A stretch of DNA of 64,000 nucleotides from Candidatus Binatia bacterium (GTDB taxonomy: Bacteria; Desulfobacterota; Binatia; UBA9968; JAJDTQ01), in contig OX638375.1 of assembly GCA_951813575.1 (NCBI GenBank), positions 558,001 to 622,000 of the forward strand, in the 5' to 3' direction. Positions within the stretch are counted from its first letter, which is position 1, and each line of letters opens with the position of its first letter. The notes under the pieces are model-generated. The model did not search any database. It had not been told where the DNA came from and saw nothing but the letters and a program-made list of their open reading frames with translations. This document shows, one piece after another, positions 37,531 through 46,025 of this stretch. The position numbers were made by a program, and so were the translations under genes.

Positions 37531-37695
37531 CTAGTGGCCTGTAACATGCAATTGTGTACCAAGATGCGCAGGATTTTTTGTTGTCGGCAAGGCGCGACGA
37601 CGAGCAGTGGCGGGCACCACGCGAGGAGGAGCAACGCAGCCTACAGCAAAAAGGACAAGCAGATTGGTACGCAATTGCATTTTACAGGCCACTAG
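37531..37695. repeat. 165-base MITE-like palindromic element with CTAG ends
   Basis: The outer 32 bases at 37531-37562 match the reverse complement of 37664-37695 at 30 of 32 positions, both starting CTAGTGGCCTGTAA. The inside is also partly self-complementary (a T-rich run with TTGTCGGC on one side and GCCTACAGCAAAAA on the other). It has no coding capacity. The palindromic CTAG at both ends might be a target duplication. The right CTAG provides the TAG stop of the NUDIX gene at 37692. Confidence 0.8.
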
Positions 37696-38408
37696 AGTGT
37701 GCGCAGGGCGAACTCACGGCACAGGGCTTCCCACGTACCGAGCTCGCCCAGGGTCCGCAGGGTCGCCAAGGTCGGCGGAATCACGGCCATACGCCCCCGC
37801 TCGGCGCGCAGGAGCGCCTCCTCCGGGGTGATCCAGAGGCTTTCCGTCACCTCCTCGGAAACGTCCAACGGCACCTGGCCTTCCGGGATGGGGGCCAGGA
37901 AGAACCGCGTATCGAACCGCATGGCATACCGCTCCGGGGTGGTCCGGTGGTAGAAGTAGACCGGGCTGCCGACGTCGCAGCAAAGCCCCTCCGACGCCAG
38001 CAGTTCGGCAAAGCCCACGTCGCCGCTCAGCAGGGCGGTGCGCCTGGCCGCCACCCTTTCCTGCGTGTCCGCTCCCACCGCCACGCCGCCGTCCTGGCCC
38101 ACGCACAGCAGCACTCCCACCTCCTCGTACAGCTCCCGGATGGCCGCCACCCAATGCGCCATCGCATCCTCGGCGCTCATCTCATCCCCCAGCCGGCTCC
38201 TGGCCTCGTCGGGAGAGAGGCCCTGGCAGCGCTCCAGCATGGCGGGAGAGGCATCGGCGCGCTTGACGCTGCCGCCGGGAAAGACGAAGAACCCCCCCAG
38301 GAAACGCATCTCCCGGGGCCGGCGCGTCATGAAGATCTCGAATGCGTCGCTCGCCGGCCGTGCCAGGACGATGGTGGACGCCTTTCTGGGAACGACCTTA
38401 TCCGGCAT
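37692..38408 (-). CDS. NUDIX hydrolase, NUDT19-like with interrupted Nudix box
   Basis: 238 residues. The Nudix box is split: GG at 45-46 (FVFPGGSV) and RELYEEVG at 91-98, with about 44 residues between instead of the usual dozen. This long insert is known from the NUDT19 (RP2) group, some of which cleave CoA and acyl-CoA. Hydrolysis of a CoA-type pyrophosphate is therefore plausible but unproven. Its TAG stop is formed by the CTAG end of the 37531-37695 repeat. Confidence 0.85.
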   Translation of the reverse strand: MPDKVVPRKASTIVLARPASDAFEIFMTRRPREMRFLGGFFVFPGGSVKRADASPAMLERCQGLSPDEARSRLGDEMSAEDAMAHWVAAIRELYEEVGVLLCVGQDGGVAVGADTQERVAARRTALLSGDVGFAELLASEGLCCDVGSPVYFYHRTTPERYAMRFDTRFFLAPIPEGQVPLDVSEEVTESLWITPEEALLRAERGRMAVIPPTLATLRTLGELGTWEALCREFALRTL

Positions 38409-38455
38409 GGACCCTCAGCATGATTCTCGGGGACGGAACCCGCGCGCGGACCGCG

Positions 38456-39082
38456 TCAGCCTGCTTGCCCCCGCAGCCTTTCCAGCAGGTCTTCGAAGGA
38501 TCTCCGGTTGATGACCCGGTTGAACTGGGCGCGATAGTTGTTGACCAGGCTGATGTCCTCGATGACGACGTCGTAGATGCGCCATTTGGCGGGTTCCCCA
38601 ACGCGGTGCATGCGGTAGTCCACCTTGAACCGGCGTCCGTCTCGGTCCGCGATCTCGGTTTCGACCCGGGCGAAACGGTCATCGATCTCCTCCCCCACCA
38701 CCTTCGTCCGCTGCCCGTTGTAGGCGGAAATACGGTTCGTGTAGGTCCGTTCCAGCAGTCCGGTGAAGAGGCGCGTGAACTCCTCCCGGTGCTCGGGAGT
38801 ACGGCGGCGCCAGTGGGAGCCCAGTGAACGGCGGGCCATCTCGGCGAAGTCGAAGACCGGCAGGACGACGGCCCGAAGGCGTTCCACCTTCGCCTCCTCT
38901 CCCAGATTCGCGTCGCCGAGAATCGCAACGCTTTGCCGCAACACCGCGTCGACTTCCCGTCCGGGGCCCTCCGCGGCCGAAACCGTCCCCGCCAGCCAGC
39001 CGATGACCACCACGATCACACCGAGCCACGCGCGGCCGGAGCGGAGGGACGGGTTCTTCCTCTTCCTGGATGTCTGGTTCAT
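38456..39082 (-). CDS. mlaC: MlaC/Ttg2D-type phospholipid-binding periplasmic protein
   Basis: 208 residues. A signal peptide is apparent: a basic N-terminus, the hydrophobic run WLGVIVVVIGWLAGTVSA, and cleavage near AEG. The mature part has the family's FDFAEMARRSLGSHW and the NYRAQFNRVI C-terminal region. In the Mla system it ferries phospholipid between the outer-membrane MlaA and the inner-membrane MlaFEDB complex. No other mla gene is in the window. It supports an organism with an outer membrane. Confidence 0.88.
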   Translation of the reverse strand: MNQTSRKRKNPSLRSGRAWLGVIVVVIGWLAGTVSAAEGPGREVDAVLRQSVAILGDANLGEEAKVERLRAVVLPVFDFAEMARRSLGSHWRRRTPEHREEFTRLFTGLLERTYTNRISAYNGQRTKVVGEEIDDRFARVETEIADRDGRRFKVDYRMHRVGEPAKWRIYDVVIEDISLVNNYRAQFNRVINRRSFEDLLERLRGQAG

Positions 39083-39158
39083 GGCAGCTGGTTTCCTGTC
39101 TCACTAACCCAATCAATCTAGCCTAATCATCCTCAGGAATCCAAACCGCCGGCGCGGA

Positions 39159-39956
39159 TCACGCAAGACGCACGGCCTTGGAGAAATCGTAGTCCGCGGG
39201 GACATCGCCCTCGAACTCCCACGCCACGCGCGTGCCGGCCCGATCCGGGCCCATGTGCCGCTCCAGGAACCGGAACAACAGCGTCCACGCCGCTTCAGCC
39301 GATTCCGGGCGGTAGCGTCCGGGCATGGTGTCGTTGAGCCAGCCGTGCGGCGCGTCCCTGAAAATACGGATGGAATAGCTCTTCCAGGAGTCCTCCAGCG
39401 CCCGCCGGAACCGCAGCACGTCATCCACCGAGATGATGTGGTCGCTGTCGCCGAACACCCCCAGCACCGGGCACGACAACCGCTGGATGAACTCGCCCAC
39501 CGGCGTCGGGCGCTCCTCGTGAGGCTCCCAATCACGCTGGTAGATGCCGCCGTAGAACACCAACGCGCACCGGAGGTCGTCCCGGTGGGCCGCGGCCAGC
39601 AGCGGCTGCCTCCCGGTCTGGCACACCCCCATCACCGCGATGCGGTCGCCGTCCACATGGTCCAGGCTCCGCAGATAGGCGATGCACTCGTCCAGGTCCA
39701 CCAACGCCTCGTCGTCGCGGATGCCCACGCCCACGTCTCCGCGGGCCAGCGCCTCCCTATCCCCGGTGAACCGTGAAAACATGTCGGGAGCCAGGGCCAC
39801 GTACCCGTTGGCGGCCAGGCGCTCGGCGATGTCCGTCGTGTGCTCCACGACGCCGTAACGCTCGTGAAGCTGAACCACCGCCGGGTAGCGGCCGTCTTCG
39901 GGGGCTCTCGCCAGATAGCCCTTCTTCCCCGGAGCGAACTCCACTTCCGAAATCAT
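39159..39956 (-). CDS. Dienelactone hydrolase family protein
   Basis: 265 residues, alpha/beta hydrolase of the dienelactone hydrolase family. The Cys nucleophile is Cys112 (VMGVCQTG), with Asp172 (GDSDHIIS) and His204 (APHGW) as the other triad members and Glu32 (QLHERYG) as the gating residue, so the complete DLH set is present. It may open lactones made during aromatic ring breakdown. ATG 39956 has GGAGG seven bases upstream. Divergent from the dipeptide epimerase gene. Confidence 0.87.
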   Translation of the reverse strand: MISEVEFAPGKKGYLARAPEDGRYPAVVQLHERYGVVEHTTDIAERLAANGYVALAPDMFSRFTGDREALARGDVGVGIRDDEALVDLDECIAYLRSLDHVDGDRIAVMGVCQTGRQPLLAAAHRDDLRCALVFYGGIYQRDWEPHEERPTPVGEFIQRLSCPVLGVFGDSDHIISVDDVLRFRRALEDSWKSYSIRIFRDAPHGWLNDTMPGRYRPESAEAAWTLLFRFLERHMGPDRAGTRVAWEFEGDVPADYDFSKAVRLA

Positions 39957-40121
39957 GTCCGACCCTCCTTCAGGACCCTGCGACAAGCGGCTCAAGCACT
40001 TTGCCGGAAACGTAACAGATCGAGCCGGATGAAGCGACGACAGCGCCACTGGTCCGCCCCCGGAATTTGCGGTAGTTTCCTGTGAGGCCCGCAACGCCGG
40101 CGCACATTTCAGGAGGCACCC

Positions 40122-41195
40122 TTGACGCATATCACCCGCATCGAAGCGCGCGTCCTGAACGCGTCACTCAAGGCTCCGTTCACCATCGCCGGGGCGCGGC
40201 TGGACACGGTGCGCAACGTCGCCGTCCGGCTCGACCTCGCCGGGGGCGCAAGCGGCTGGGGGGAGATTCCCATCCTGCCCACGGTCACCCCGGAAGACCA
40301 GACAACGGCGCTGGAAGCCTCCCGGCGGGCGGCACGGGAATGGACCGGCCGGGACGCCCTGCGCTGGCGTCCGCTGGTGGACGCCCTTTCCGGCGCCCTC
40401 CCGGGAGCGCCGACGGTACGAGCCGGCCTGGAGATGGCGCTCTTCGACGCCCTGGCGCGCCACTGGGACATCCCGCTGTTCGCATTCTTCGGGGGCGCCG
40501 CCGACCGCATCGTCACCGACATCACGATCCCCATCTGCGGGCCGGAGGACGCCCGCCGGCTTGCGGCCGAGTACCGCGGCCTCGGATTCACGACCCTCAA
40601 GACCAAGGTCGGCGCCGACGTTGACGCCGATGTCGAGCGCGTCAGGGCCATCCGCGAGGGCCATCCCACGAGCGACCTCATCCTCGACGGCAACGAGGGT
40701 TATGACGTGGCGCAGACCCTCGCGTTCCTGAAGACCCTCCGCCGCAAGGGTCTCGAACCGGCCCTCCTGGAGCAGCCCGTGCCGCGGGAGGACCGTGACG
40801 GCCAGGCCCGCCTGGTGCGCGAAGCGGGCGTTCCCGTGGCCGCGGACGAATCCTGCCGCTCGTCCGAGGACGCCGCCCGCATCGCCCGGGACCGTCTCGC
40901 CCACGTCGTCAACATCAAGCTGGCCAAGTGCGGCGTGGCCCAGGCCCTGGAGATCATCGCCATCGCCCGCGCCTCCGGCCTCGGACTCATGATCGGCGGC
41001 ATGGTGGAAACCCGGCTGGCCATGGGGTTCAGCGCGCATCTGGCGGCGGGCACGGGCGCCTTCCAGTGGATCGACCTCGACACCCCCATGCTGCTGGCCG
41101 ACGACCCGGTGCTCCACGGGTACACGGTCGACGGACCCCGCTACCACCTCGGGCACATCACCGCCGGCCACGGCGGCGAGCTCGCGGCATGGTAG
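40122..41195 (+). CDS. Dipeptide epimerase (enolase superfamily, MR/MLE-like)
   Basis: 357 residues. KTK at 160-162, Asp189-x-Asn191, Glu217, Asp242 and Lys266 supply the two base lysines and the three metal ligands of the muconate-lactonising subgroup. That geometry fits L-Ala-D/L-Glu epimerases and related dipeptide epimerases. Starts at a TTG with AGGAGG five bases upstream. Its last seven bases overlap the isoaspartyl peptidase start, so the two are translationally coupled and probably act on one peptide pool, for example murein-derived peptides. Confidence 0.85.
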   Translation: MTHITRIEARVLNASLKAPFTIAGARLDTVRNVAVRLDLAGGASGWGEIPILPTVTPEDQTTALEASRRAAREWTGRDALRWRPLVDALSGALPGAPTVRAGLEMALFDALARHWDIPLFAFFGGAADRIVTDITIPICGPEDARRLAAEYRGLGFTTLKTKVGADVDADVERVRAIREGHPTSDLILDGNEGYDVAQTLAFLKTLRRKGLEPALLEQPVPREDRDGQARLVREAGVPVAADESCRSSEDAARIARDRLAHVVNIKLAKCGVAQALEIIAIARASGLGLMIGGMVETRLAMGFSAHLAAGTGAFQWIDLDTPMLLADDPVLHGYTVDGPRYHLGHITAGHGGELAAW

Positions 41196-42043
41196 CACCC
41201 CGGCCAGCCATCATCGTTCACGGCGGCGCCGGCCGCGGCTCCGGCGAGTGGCGCGAGGCGCGGCTCGCCGGATGCCTGAAGGCCGCCGCCATCGGCTGGA
41301 CGGCCCTCGAATCCGGACGGACGGCGCTGGACGCGGTCGGAGAGGCGGTGGCGGCGCTGGAGGACGATCCTCTGTTCAACGCCGGCACCGGGTCTTCGCT
41401 GAACCGGGCCGGCGAGGTGGAGATGGATGCGGCACTGATGTCGGACACCCTGGAGGCCGGAGCGGTGGCCTCGGTCGCCGGCATCAGGAATCCCATACGG
41501 CTGGCGCGGAAGATTCTGGAGGACGGGCGTCACGTGCTGCTGACGGGCCGGGGAGCATGCGACTTCGCACGGCAGGCCGGTATACCGTTGGTACCGCCCG
41601 AAACCCTGGTGACCCAGGCCCAGCACGAACGCTGGAAGCAAGACCATGGCACGGTGGGCTGCGTGGCGGTGGACCGCGAGGGCCACCTGGCCGCCGGCAC
41701 CTCCACCGGGGGCACGCCGCGGAAGCTCCCCGGCCGGGTCGGCGACACGCCGCTGATCGGCTGCGGCACCTACGGCAACGGCGACGGGGCGGCTTCGTGC
41801 ACCGGCCAGGGAGAGGCGATCATCAAGGTGGTGCTGGCCAAGACCTCGGTGGACCAGTTGACCTCGGGACTGGCCCCCATGGAGGCGGCCCGACAGGCCG
41901 TCGCACTGCTGGCGCGGCGGACCGGCGGACAGGCCGGGGTCATTCTGGTGGACCGCCTGGGCGTCGTCGGCTACGCCCACAACACGGAAGAGATGCCCCT
42001 CTGCCACATCATCGGGGGAGAAGAGCCAGTCACGGTGTTCTAG
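41189..42043 (+). CDS. Isoaspartyl peptidase / L-asparaginase (Ntn hydrolase)
   Basis: 284 residues, plant-type asparaginase family. Self-cleavage is expected before Thr155 (QDHGTVGCVAVD), leaving Thr as N-terminal nucleophile of the small subunit. Other motifs are IIVHGGAG at the N-terminus and NAGTGSSLNRAG near residue 64. Members cut beta-aspartyl dipeptides and asparagine. The ATG lies inside the end of the dipeptide epimerase gene (ATGGTAG). Convergent with the 42058 gene, 14 bases between stops. Confidence 0.9.
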   Translation: MVAPRPAIIVHGGAGRGSGEWREARLAGCLKAAAIGWTALESGRTALDAVGEAVAALEDDPLFNAGTGSSLNRAGEVEMDAALMSDTLEAGAVASVAGIRNPIRLARKILEDGRHVLLTGRGACDFARQAGIPLVPPETLVTQAQHERWKQDHGTVGCVAVDREGHLAAGTSTGGTPRKLPGRVGDTPLIGCGTYGNGDGAASCTGQGEAIIKVVLAKTSVDQLTSGLAPMEAARQAVALLARRTGGQAGVILVDRLGVVGYAHNTEEMPLCHIIGGEEPVTVF

Positions 42044-42057
42044 GTTTCCGGTAAGGT

Positions 42058-42912
42058 TCAACGACGGGAACGCGTCAGCCCCAGACTTCGAAGCCGGGCC
42101 AGGAGGAACTCGGGCGTGATCGGCTTGCTCAACACTTCACGCACCGCCGCTCCGGCCTCGCCGGGTTCCGCGGCCCGGGCCAGGAGGGACTCCAACTCCA
42201 CCTCGGTTTCCGCCCATTGCCTGATGGGATAGAGCACGTCCATGGCCGCCGCCCGCAGCTCATACCGGTCCCGGAACGCGCCCGTGGCGGCGACGAAGTT
42301 CCGCGCCACCTCGGGAAGCGCGTCCTCCCAGGACGATTCGCTTCCGACGCCGCTCCGCACGGCGCTGGACGACTGGTCCTTGAGATGGGCGGGAAGCACC
42401 AGCGGGCGGACCCGGTCCCGGTAGGGACGATTCTCGGGCTGTTCCAGCAAGGCCGCCAGGTCCTCGCCGCCCCAGTCCTCCCGATTGGCGCCGATCAGCC
42501 GCGCGCGGGCGAACAGTGCGTCCAGCGCGCGGTCACGGTCCTGGTAGTACCTGGGGTCGAAGATCTGGAGCACCTTGTCCATGCCGACGATGAACCAGAG
42601 CTCCACGCCGCGGCCGCAACAGGCCTGGAACGCCGGCGCCTGCTCGGCGTAAAGGCCGCGGTTGACGACCGCGACGGCCGACCAGGGGCGACCCCGCCCC
42701 ATCAGAGACAGCAACAGCAACCGATCCTCGCGGATCAGGCCTTCCAGCCGTTCCTTGTCGACGATGACGCTACTCAGGGAGAATACGACGTGGTCCAGGT
42801 CGAACCGCCGCCGGGCCTCGACCGCCAGTTCCAGATGGGCAATGGTGGGCGGATTGAAGGAGCCCGGCAGTATGCCTACCCGGCCGCCGTCGATGCGCTC
42901 CGGCCCGCCCAC
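42058..42912 (-). CDS. Nicotinamide/nicotinate mononucleotide adenylyltransferase-like protein
   Basis: 284 residues. The first half is a nucleotidyltransferase: GILPGSFNPPTIAHLEL carries the (H/T)xGH-like site (TIAH here, so the Gly is replaced) and QSSSAVRSGV matches the ISSTxxR motif. About 80 extra residues follow at the C-terminus. The altered site means NAD synthesis is not certain. GTG 42912 has GAGG eight bases upstream. The frame stays open, without a standard start codon, back to the stop of the zinc-ribbon gene at 43015. Confidence 0.72.
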   Translation of the reverse strand: MGGPERIDGGRVGILPGSFNPPTIAHLELAVEARRRFDLDHVVFSLSSVIVDKERLEGLIREDRLLLLSLMGRGRPWSAVAVVNRGLYAEQAPAFQACCGRGVELWFIVGMDKVLQIFDPRYYQDRDRALDALFARARLIGANREDWGGEDLAALLEQPENRPYRDRVRPLVLPAHLKDQSSSAVRSGVGSESSWEDALPEVARNFVAATGAFRDRYELRAAAMDVLYPIRQWAETEVELESLLARAAEPGEAGAAVREVLSKPITPEFLLARLRSLGLTRSRR

Positions 42913-43014
42913 CAGGACGGCCTCGGGCGCATCGGCGGCCTCGATGCTCTCAAGCGCCTGCCGGAACCGGAACAGACGCGTCAGATCGAAAAAGTCCTGC
43001 TGCGACAGGCTCTC

Positions 43015-43161
43015 CTATTTCCAGATATTGGGGCTCTCTTCCTCGGGAAAATACACGTCGCAAAAAGGACAGTGAAACTCCATTCCGGACCCCAGCATGT
43101 GCGGGTTCACGACGAACTTTTCACTGCATTTCGGACACGTCACTTCAACAGCCTGACCCAT
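43015..43161 (-). CDS. 48-residue zinc-ribbon protein (MJ0042-like)
   Basis: Short complete gene: ATG 43161, TAG 43015-43017, with AAAGGAAAG as ribosome site about 7 bases upstream. The product has CPKC at residues 9-12 and CPFC at 31-34 spaced by 18 residues, the MJ0042 finger layout (VTCPKCSEKFVVNP), and an acidic tail ending in NIWK. It probably binds one zinc. Function unknown. It lies between the palindromic repeat at 43177 and the NMN-adenylyltransferase-like gene, and its TAG is in frame with the latter. Confidence 0.75.
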   Translation of the reverse strand: MGQAVEVTCPKCSEKFVVNPHMLGSGMEFHCPFCDVYFPEEESPNIWK

Positions 43162-43176
43162 GAAGCTTTCCTTTCA

Positions 43177-43224
43177 CCAGTGGCCTGTAACTTGCGACTC
43201 GACAACAACCTTACAGTCCACTAG
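43177..43224. repeat. 48-base short member of the CTAG palindrome family
   Basis: Starts CCAGTGGCCTGTAA and ends with the complement of CTAGTGGACTGTAA, so the outer 14 bases pair with two mismatches. The same 14-base end opens the 165-base element at 37531. The terminal CTAG gives the TAG stop of the UbiD gene at 43221-43223. Confidence 0.65.
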
Positions 43225-44666
43225 GACCAATAAGTGGTGCGGTCTATGGGAATGTGGGAGAGGATCTCTCCCGGTATGAAATCCTCGATCTTGATCCTTT
43301 GCATGGCCTCGTCCGGCACCTTCGACACCGGGGAGAACGGCCGGTCCAGCGGCCGCGTGGCATCCACGATCATGCCGGACGTCTTGATCTCGTCCACCAG
43401 CGACGGGTCCAGGAAGTTGCCGCGGAAGAGCGGCTTCAGGATCGACACCTGACGGTGCGGCTGCACCCGTGTCGCCAGGGCCCACAGGATATCCGTGGAG
43501 TCATAGACGTTGATGTCGTCGTCGAAGACGAAGACGTTCTTGGTATGGTCGAAGGTCAGTGCCGCGGCCGCCGCCCGGCCGGGATCGCCTTCGGACATCT
43601 TCTTCATGGAGATGAACACGTTGTAGTGGGCGTGCCGGCCCATCTTGCACACCGCCGTCACCCCCGGCACCGCCTCGCGGCAACGCCGCAGGTACGCGCC
43701 CTCCCGCGGCAGGTCCATCCAGGGCTTGTCGCCTTCCGGCGTGATGATGGACTGGAACATGGCGCCCTTGCGCCAGTTCATGGCCGTGACCTTGTAGTCC
43801 ACGCAAGTGGTGTAGCGCTGCGGCCCGAGATAGCCCGGAGCCTCACCGAAGGGACCTTCCACGACGCGCTTGTTGGGTTGCAGCAGGCCTTCGATGACCA
43901 GCTCGGCGTCCGCGGGTATGAGGAAGTTGTCGCCCCAGGTGGAGGACGGCGTGAGCCGCAGGGGCTCCTGCATGTAGCCGCCGATAATCTCGAACTCACT
44001 CACCTCGAAGGGGCCGCTGTAGCAGGCACCCATGTGGTAGGCCGGGTGGTGCCCCAGGACCGTGGCCACGGGACACTCCATGTTGTTGTCCTCGTAGTCC
44101 CTGAAGATCTTCCACAGGTGGCGCGGCGAGGCGTACAACGCCGTGCTCTGGGGCGACTTGATCTCCATCCGATGGTACGAGCAGTTGTAGATTCCGGAGG
44201 TCCGTTCCTTGGTGATGGTGGACATGACGATGTAGGGGCCGCCGTCCATGTAGTGATGCCGCATGATGGGAATCTGATAGATATCCACGTCCTTGCCGCT
44301 CTGGACGTTCTCCATGACGGGAGCCTGGTCGCGTTCGATGACCACCGGGGCGATGCGGTGCTCCTCGAGCTCCAGACAGCGGTCGGTCATGGCCTCCCGG
44401 CTCATGCTCCTGTCCATCCCGAGAGCGACCTGGGTCTTGCCCTGCGAGATCTCGCAGTTCATGGTCAGCTTGATGTCGGACGGCTTCCCGTGAAGGTCCA
44501 ACGGGTTGTCGAAAACCAGGATGGGAAACTTTCTCTCCGCATCGAGGTGCTTGATGAGCGCGCTCACGTCGTAATGAGCCGGATCCACCTGCTTGGTCAC
44601 GTGGACCACCTCGTTGGGAATCTCTCGCCGGCAGTCTTCCAGAAACGATCCCAGGCTCTTGGGCAT
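43221..44666 (-). CDS. UbiD-family decarboxylase (fourth copy)
   Basis: 481 residues. VEGPFGEAPGYLG keeps both catalytic glutamates, and SYHRMEIKSP holds the candidate Arg. It belongs to the larger UbiD branch with decarboxylases of (hydroxy)aryl acids, but the substrate is unknown. It is divergent from a complete tripartite tricarboxylate transporter (TctC at 44841), sharing a 174-base gap, which suggests that transporter brings in its acid substrate. The TAG stop comes from a palindromic repeat. Confidence 0.9.
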   Translation of the reverse strand: MPKSLGSFLEDCRREIPNEVVHVTKQVDPAHYDVSALIKHLDAERKFPILVFDNPLDLHGKPSDIKLTMNCEISQGKTQVALGMDRSMSREAMTDRCLELEEHRIAPVVIERDQAPVMENVQSGKDVDIYQIPIMRHHYMDGGPYIVMSTITKERTSGIYNCSYHRMEIKSPQSTALYASPRHLWKIFRDYEDNNMECPVATVLGHHPAYHMGACYSGPFEVSEFEIIGGYMQEPLRLTPSSTWGDNFLIPADAELVIEGLLQPNKRVVEGPFGEAPGYLGPQRYTTCVDYKVTAMNWRKGAMFQSIITPEGDKPWMDLPREGAYLRRCREAVPGVTAVCKMGRHAHYNVFISMKKMSEGDPGRAAAAALTFDHTKNVFVFDDDINVYDSTDILWALATRVQPHRQVSILKPLFRGNFLDPSLVDEIKTSGMIVDATRPLDRPFSPVSKVPDEAMQRIKIEDFIPGEILSHIPIDRTTYWS

Positions 44667-45920: not shown

Positions 45921-46025
45921 ACCGGGTCGCGGCCCTCGGCCGGGTGCTGCCCGCCCCGCGGGGATCCTTCGTTGCCGGCAAGGCGCGACCATCCCTAGGG
46001 GCGGGCATCACCGGATCCCCTTATC
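45921..46025. repeat. tctC-tctA intergenic gap containing a diverged repeat fragment
   Basis: 105 bases. Bases 45971-46012 match the inside of the 165-base repeat (from 37580) at about 32 of 42 positions by eye, starting GTTGCCGGCAAGGCGCGAC and ending GGCGGGCATCAC. It has no outer CTAG arms here. I see no strong terminator, so tctA is probably still in the tctC transcript at a lower level. Confidence 0.45.

Follow-up and report, generated by a model that had tools for sequence, protein, structure and literature searches.

Results

The window analyzed here is a stretch of 64,000 nucleotides (nt), positions 558001-622000 of the single 4.21-Mb contig of Candidatus Binatia bacterium (genome G000). 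It contains two inverted repeats, copies A and B of a family of miniature inverted-repeat transposable elements (MITEs), each of which overlaps the stop codon of an adjoining gene; how the elements came to lie there is the subject of this work. Copy A, a MITE with CTAG borders recognized as the 165 nt inverted repeat I1, occupies 37531..37695 without an assigned strand. Its TA duplications (37532-37533 and 37693-37694) enclose the element proper at 37534-37692. The copy starts with CTAGTGGCCTGTAAC and ends with ...TTTACAGGCCACTAG, and its arms of 37 nt are complementary at 89%. Within it lies a core (GGATTTTTTGTTGTCGGCAAGGCGCGACGACGAGCAGTGGCGG...CAGCAAAAAGGACAAGCAGAT; 37571..37664, + strand) that is common to copies whose terminal arms differ. 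The adjoining gene, called from its open reading frame (ORF) and Pfam, encodes a NUDIX-domain protein (37692..38408, - strand; Pfam NUDIX, 28.6 bits, cut-off 21.1). This gene stops at a TAG (37692-37694) that forms the border of copy A.

Copy B (43177..43224 including borders, again without a strand) is short and lacks the core. Its element measures 42 nt (43180-43221); the TA duplication at 43222-43223 is intact and that at 43178-43179 has decayed to CA. Here the adjoining gene, identified in the same way, is a UbiD-family decarboxylase (43221..44666, - strand) that matches both Pfam UbiD and UbiD_C, and its TAG at 43221-43223 is the border of the element. Both copies have C-TA-G at the border facing the gene. 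The far border is intact in copy A and has changed from CTAG to CCAG (+ strand) in copy B, where the gene-side border alone is intact. The initial annotation of this DNA, which had both genes ending exactly in the CTAG border of the repeat, was therefore right about the positions of the two stops. Taken alone, this two-for-two arrangement is weak evidence: its chance is 0.26 if copies fall on stops at the genome-wide rate of 27/53 reported below, and 0.055-0.10 at the rate for free CTAG sites.

Copy A is one of many. Searching the genome with its 165 nt sequence gave at least 45 matches (40 of 71 first-look candidates were scored), and the core pattern occurs at 50 places. A strict end comprising CTAG and the terminal inverted repeat (TIR), CTAGTGKNNTGTM, was found 101 times, against 3 for its reversed control. 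Pairing of ends within 400 nt, at a threshold of 13 of the 18 end positions, yielded 52 copies of 37-253 nt; copy B falls below that threshold and was added by hand, making 53. The 21 strict TIR ends (of 101) that have no partner lie outside the 53 and were classed separately. In 47 of the 52 paired copies the two ends match at 16-18 of 18 positions. Subfamilies share the core and differ in their arms, which are complementary within each copy (CTAGTGTCCTGTC, CTAGTGTCGTGTC, CTAGTGTGGTGTC, CTAGTGTTGTGTC, CTAGTGGCCTGTA). At loci L031-L092 one conserved core lies between the arms of several subfamilies, as if it had been passed among transposon ends.

The borders define the target. Most of the 53 copies are flanked by TA on both sides, and the base outside TA is C on the left in 48/53 and G on the right in 48/53; the next four positions beyond CTAG show no preference comparable to this C and G. 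Insertion is therefore aimed at CTAG, as the initial annotation had supposed, and duplicates the TA. The first base of the element is G and its last is C, which restores CTAG at either junction, and at some of these restored sites a copy adjoins further ends (1792558-1792741; L208, in a sister species). No copy contains a transposase. With these TIRs, TA duplications and transposase-less copies, the repeats are an IS630-type (Tc1/mariner-like) MITE family. Strict ends recur in all eight other genomes of the genus that we sampled (35 to 155 each, against 1 to 6 for controls). In 30 more distant genomes the counts were mostly near those of the controls, and three (G017, G024 and G032) exceeded theirs.

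Candidate partners for the MITEs exist within the genus, where DDE_3 transposases occur in 4/9 genomes. Autonomous IS630 elements with related ends are found in three sister species, at L207 (G005), L210 (G001) and L208 (G008); together with L213, a 100% identical match to L207, these CTAGTGT...-ended elements measure 1.13-1.19 kb. The L207 insertion sequence (IS) is 1147 nt long with ends CTAGTGTCCCGTCCCATTTAAT / ATTATATGGGACAGGACACTAG; its transposase matches NCBIfam NF033545 (IS630) at 249 bits (cut-off 100) and Pfam DDE_3, and the stop of that gene is the border TAG. L210 (1193 nt) itself occupies the TAG that ends an ORF of 294 codons. A DDE_3 IS of the genome itself, at 1546500-1553000, was considered as the partner and ruled out, its ends being different. 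Since this search found no IS bearing these ends in G000, mobilization in trans is deduced from the sister species.

We then compared the copies with free CTAG sites. Gene ends came from a purpose-written three-periodic Markov gene caller, which recovers the NUDIX and UbiD genes of the window with the stops given above. Control CTAGs excluded sites inside or within 12 nt of an element or strict TIR and those within 300 nt of the end of a stretch. The border TAG is the stop of the adjoining called gene in 27/53 copies, one of them on both sides, giving 28 stop-type borders; 20/53 copies are intergenic. Among 81 free CTAGs in 17 random 18-kb stretches, 19 were stops, 41 intergenic and 21 coding, so that copies are enriched on stops (27/53 versus 19/81, odds ratio [OR] 3.4, p = 0.001; Fisher tests in this paragraph are one-sided). 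The excess persists when only stop and non-coding sites are considered (27/47 versus 19/60, OR 2.9, p = 0.007). A second control, from the window and the DNA flanking the copies (n = 107: 32 stop, 53 intergenic, 22 coding), gave OR 2.4 (27/53 versus 32/107, p = 0.008), and OR 2.2 (p = 0.022) when restricted to stop and intergenic sites. The genome is 66% GC; called genes end in TAG, TGA and TAA 195, 216 and 37 times in the flanks and window, and 92, 148 and 28 times in the random stretches. TAG thus almost equals TGA in frequency in the former set and falls further behind it in the latter.

A sister species, G007, was scored likewise from 40 stretches surrounding strict TIR matches that were chosen by hand from the 79 in that genome; these stretches provided 26 paired copies. 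Twelve of the 26 lie on stops, against 4/17 flank control CTAGs, the same direction as in G000. For both genomes pooled, the comparison is 39/79 versus 55/205 (OR 2.7, p = 0.0003), or 39/72 versus 55/157 among harmless sites only (OR 2.2, p = 0.005).

Orthologous loci show what the gene ends look like with and without an element. For UbiD we read nine sequences: the G000 copy, orthologues from seven other genomes and one paralogue from G000 (loci L173, L175 and L176 were left out). All nine end in TGG TC(C/G) TAG, whether the element is present or absent. The copy B insertion is shared by the sister species G008. G002 has a clean empty site, TAG tgaaaggaaagcttcatggg, with a single TA and continuous with the sequence beyond copy B: G002 reads TCG TAG tgaaaggaaagcttc, and G000 reads TCC TA, the element, TG (the decayed TA) and G tgaaaggaaagcttc. 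A second clean empty TAG site, for the copy at 1841248, is found in G008 (L177), with the TAG there preceded by A. The NUDIX gene has relatives of 75-80% identity in eight genomes of the genus (paralogues L162-L164 were left out). None of the eight offers a clean empty site; four stop with TAG and four with TGA, at positions that differ by a few codons, and the G001 gene has element-like sequence just past its TAG.

We extended this comparison to 13 of the 28 stop-type borders. The 30 returned loci that were read cover 8 of the 13 sites; 13 of these ends are TAG and 17 TGA, and the position of the stop is unchanged in 27/30 and one codon earlier in 3/30. At three of ten orthologous C-TAG stops there is another element with ends unlike those of the G000 copy in the same stop: an intact 165 nt core-bearing copy in G007 (L187), a short copy whose far end has decayed in G002 (L180), and in G003 (L183) an element of which the gene-side end alone was seen. 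A fourth stop, in G008 (L193), carries a decayed element of ~170 nt. Most simply, these differing elements are independent insertions, and for each a single old insertion that has since diverged is possible.

The 21 unpaired strict ends comprise 10 on stops, 10 at other sites and 1 in coding DNA. Their share on stops (10/21) exceeds that of the ends of paired copies (28/106; binomial p = 0.03, Fisher p = 0.05). The same pattern is seen in copy B, L180 and L183, whose gene-side ends are kept, apparently through selection acting on the stop of the host gene.

Finally, we asked how CTAG sites are distributed. The 295.8 kb scanned contained 81 free CTAGs, where base composition predicts ~958 in 306 kb, a depletion of ~11-fold in this genome. 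The motif is rare in coding DNA and about one quarter of free CTAGs are stop codons. Because CTAG is so scarce, rare in coding sequence and often a stop, stops make up a large share of the safe targets. We estimate that copies occupy 9.1% of C-TAG stops, 3.3% of intergenic CTAGs and 2.0% of coding CTAGs. Only 2 of 19 intergenic copies lie between divergent genes, against 29/83 control CTAGs (p = 0.051; one of the 20 intergenic copies, with no called gene on its left, was dropped). When divergent intergenic sites are set aside, the excess on stops falls to OR 1.7 (p = 0.11), and survivorship may therefore suffice to explain what remains.

Several other observations concern the window. No match to copy A was found in a plasmid collection, and no family reached its gathering score in an Rfam scan of the window. 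A degenerate palindrome between two genes (GGGGATCC...GGATCCCC, 45960-46019) was examined and not taken as a copy; it holds a CTAG and a stretch 76% like part of the copy A core, and is possibly a decayed MITE. The genus has an unusually large set of UbiD-like genes, with 34 matches to the UbiD query in G000 and 16 to 40 in the eight sister genomes.

Discussion

These comparisons lead us to conclude, with a probability of roughly 0.87, that non-autonomous IS630 MITEs target CTAG and rebuild native TAG stop codons, and that surviving copies accumulate there. We propose that an IS630 transposase, probably supplied in trans, would insert the MITE at the TA of CTAG and duplicate that TA. With G as its first base and C as its last, the element would leave CTAG at both junctions, so that insertion into the C-TAG stop of a gene would not alter the protein. 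Insertions into coding DNA or promoters would presumably be lost, and surviving copies would collect on TAG stops that already existed and in 3' intergenic DNA. Most of the stop placement follows from the CTAG target itself; the residual excess we attribute mainly to survivorship, that is, to purifying selection.

The initial annotation had each repeat supply the stop of its gene, and here the direction of cause is reversed: the stop precedes the element. An element that truncated or extended genes on insertion, giving them a new TAG, has in its favor that the border TAG is physically made of the TA duplication and the element's own G, and that the NUDIX gene has no clean empty site. Such an origin is nevertheless highly improbable. 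When the elements are removed in silico, a stop remains at 28/28 borders (27 TAG, 1 TAA), a result partly expected if the target is CTAG; the UbiD sequences share their terminal codons with or without the element; and the stops of the 30 further orthologues hardly move. An in-frame TAG following C occurs in a CTAG target only at native stops, and therefore no new stop need be made. The further suggestion that copies are kept as 3'-end hairpins or terminators of the preceding gene fares little better. Both window copies fold better than shuffled sequence (z -2.4 for copy B, -3.2 for copy A without its last 15 bases), but this is expected of any inverted repeat. A terminator scan of both copies found no GC stem followed by a U run, and the region as a whole has 3 sites against a shuffle mean of 3.0. 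The next gene is on the same strand at 18/28 stop-type borders, and the orientation of the core relative to the gene is unbiased (15:10, p = 0.42). One copy (L064:2961-3122, genome 1965460-1965621) lies between the L22 gene, assigned by Pfam, and the next ribosomal ORF, of 220 amino acids, which we take to encode ribosomal protein S3, a place where a strong terminator would be costly. A terminator role is thus not supported, and we consider it very unlikely. At T-TAG ends in sister species (L189, L201), a short apparent remnant is seen at this same place between L22 and the next gene.

Harder to weigh is a true hot spot, in which insertion is guided to stop codons or 3' ends by something beyond CTAG, such as transcription termination or DNA structure. 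Such guidance would account for the surplus of copies on stops relative to non-coding CTAGs (OR 2.9 against random stretches; 2.5 pooled, p = 0.006; 2.2 against flanks), for the nearness of intergenic copies to stops (median 19 nt, against 72.5 nt for control CTAGs), and for the presence of copies with other ends at the corresponding stops of G002, G003 and G007, and of the decayed one in G008. Set against this, the excess shrinks to the non-significant value given above once divergent intergenic sites are excluded, and there is no sequence preference outside CTAG comparable to the C and G. We regard guided insertion as unlikely, but a good deal less so than either of the preceding explanations.

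Targeting of CTAG followed by survival remains the reading we prefer, and a number of points weigh against it. Our gene caller was purpose-written rather than published; the 28 stop-type genes include one of just 38 amino acids, with a weak score; and 6/53 copies show some other kind of overlap with a called gene. Alone, G007 is non-significant (p = 0.12, or 0.31 against harmless sites), and the exact core motif is absent from 24/26 of its copies, so that what G007 replicates is the end family. In G000 itself no DDE_3 transposase with these ends was found, its two DDE_3 matches having other termini. Pure survivorship is also strained by the occupied orthologous stops: compared with an occupancy of 9.1%, three of ten gives p = 0.055, and four of ten p = 0.009. 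That comparison is biased upward, since the stops were chosen for having a copy in G000. In the end, the idea that C-TAG gene ends are natural landing sites is borne out by the 27/53 copies found there, and the proposed rule survives as a statistical excess: 26/53 copies lie off stops, and a large part of the excess reflects where CTAG sites persist in this genome.

The three orthologous stops holding another element, the fourth with a decayed one, and the 10/21 orphan ends on stops are suggestive of something further. C-TAG stops might be reusable landing pads, hit again by different subfamilies across the genus, with the pad regenerated at each insertion and the gene-side end held by selection. 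We offer this tentatively; it may well not hold.

This account explains why a repeat can lie flush with a gene end, being harmless and functionless there, and it ties the scarcity of CTAG in coding DNA to the places where CTAG-targeting elements survive. It also cautions annotators against reading overlap between a repeat and a stop codon as a sign of regulation. Any family that targets CTAG can be examined with the same test.

The closest relatives are the IS630 elements themselves. Going by titles from Tenzen (1990) and from Tenzen and Ohtsubo (1991), cited in PMC2170065, IS630 reportedly prefers the TA in 5'-CTAG-3' as its target, and the transposase of the relatives found here matches the IS630 model NF033545. 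What differs is that we deal mainly with non-autonomous copies of 37-253 nt, in an uncultured lineage, with stop placement counted genome-wide. IS870 is said to borrow a stop codon, again going by a title (Fournier, 1993, cited in PMC6471742). In a wider IS comparison across several phyla (26 of 58 loci, plus L208 and L210), ends could be delimited for 19 of 28; it is illustrative, having been made without the gene caller and with some loci from one genome. Like IS870, 5/19 delimited elements end their own transposase at the border (L213, identical to L207, L215, L216, L219 and L237), with TAG in four and TAA in L237. The case of IS870, an element of the IS5 group, concerns the element's own gene, unlike the host stops considered here. 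C...G lies outside TA in 17/19, and an outside ORF of at least 192 codons ends at the border in 4/19.

Other systems share single features. A passage of PMC6471742 describes CTAG as a known target of ISs that is underrepresented in the genomes of haloarchaea and of other organisms. The passages of PMC2229807 describe RUP of Streptococcus pneumoniae, a 107 bp repeat related to IS630-Spn1 that inserts at sites containing TA. RUP thus resembles our MITEs as a small IS630-related repeat with TA-containing insertion sites; it comes from Streptococcus, the likeness is one of description rather than sequence, and those passages hold no rule about host stop codons. In the parts of the literature consulted we found no study that counts, across a genome, the IS630-type MITEs lying on host stops, and neither this quantification nor the comparison of orthologous stops was found in print there. 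The principle, that insertion at CTAG rebuilds a stop, is already in print for TnRErm46/ISRe46 of Rhodococcus equi, an IS481-family element: in passages of PMC6794481 it targets CTAG, which gives the TAG stop of its transposase and of some target genes, and these passages contain no comparison with random CTAG sites. TnRErm46 therefore shares with our family both the CTAG target and the reuse of stop codons; unlike the MITEs, it is a resistance transposon, it depends on another transposase family, and the sequence it repeats is the hexamer NCTAGN.

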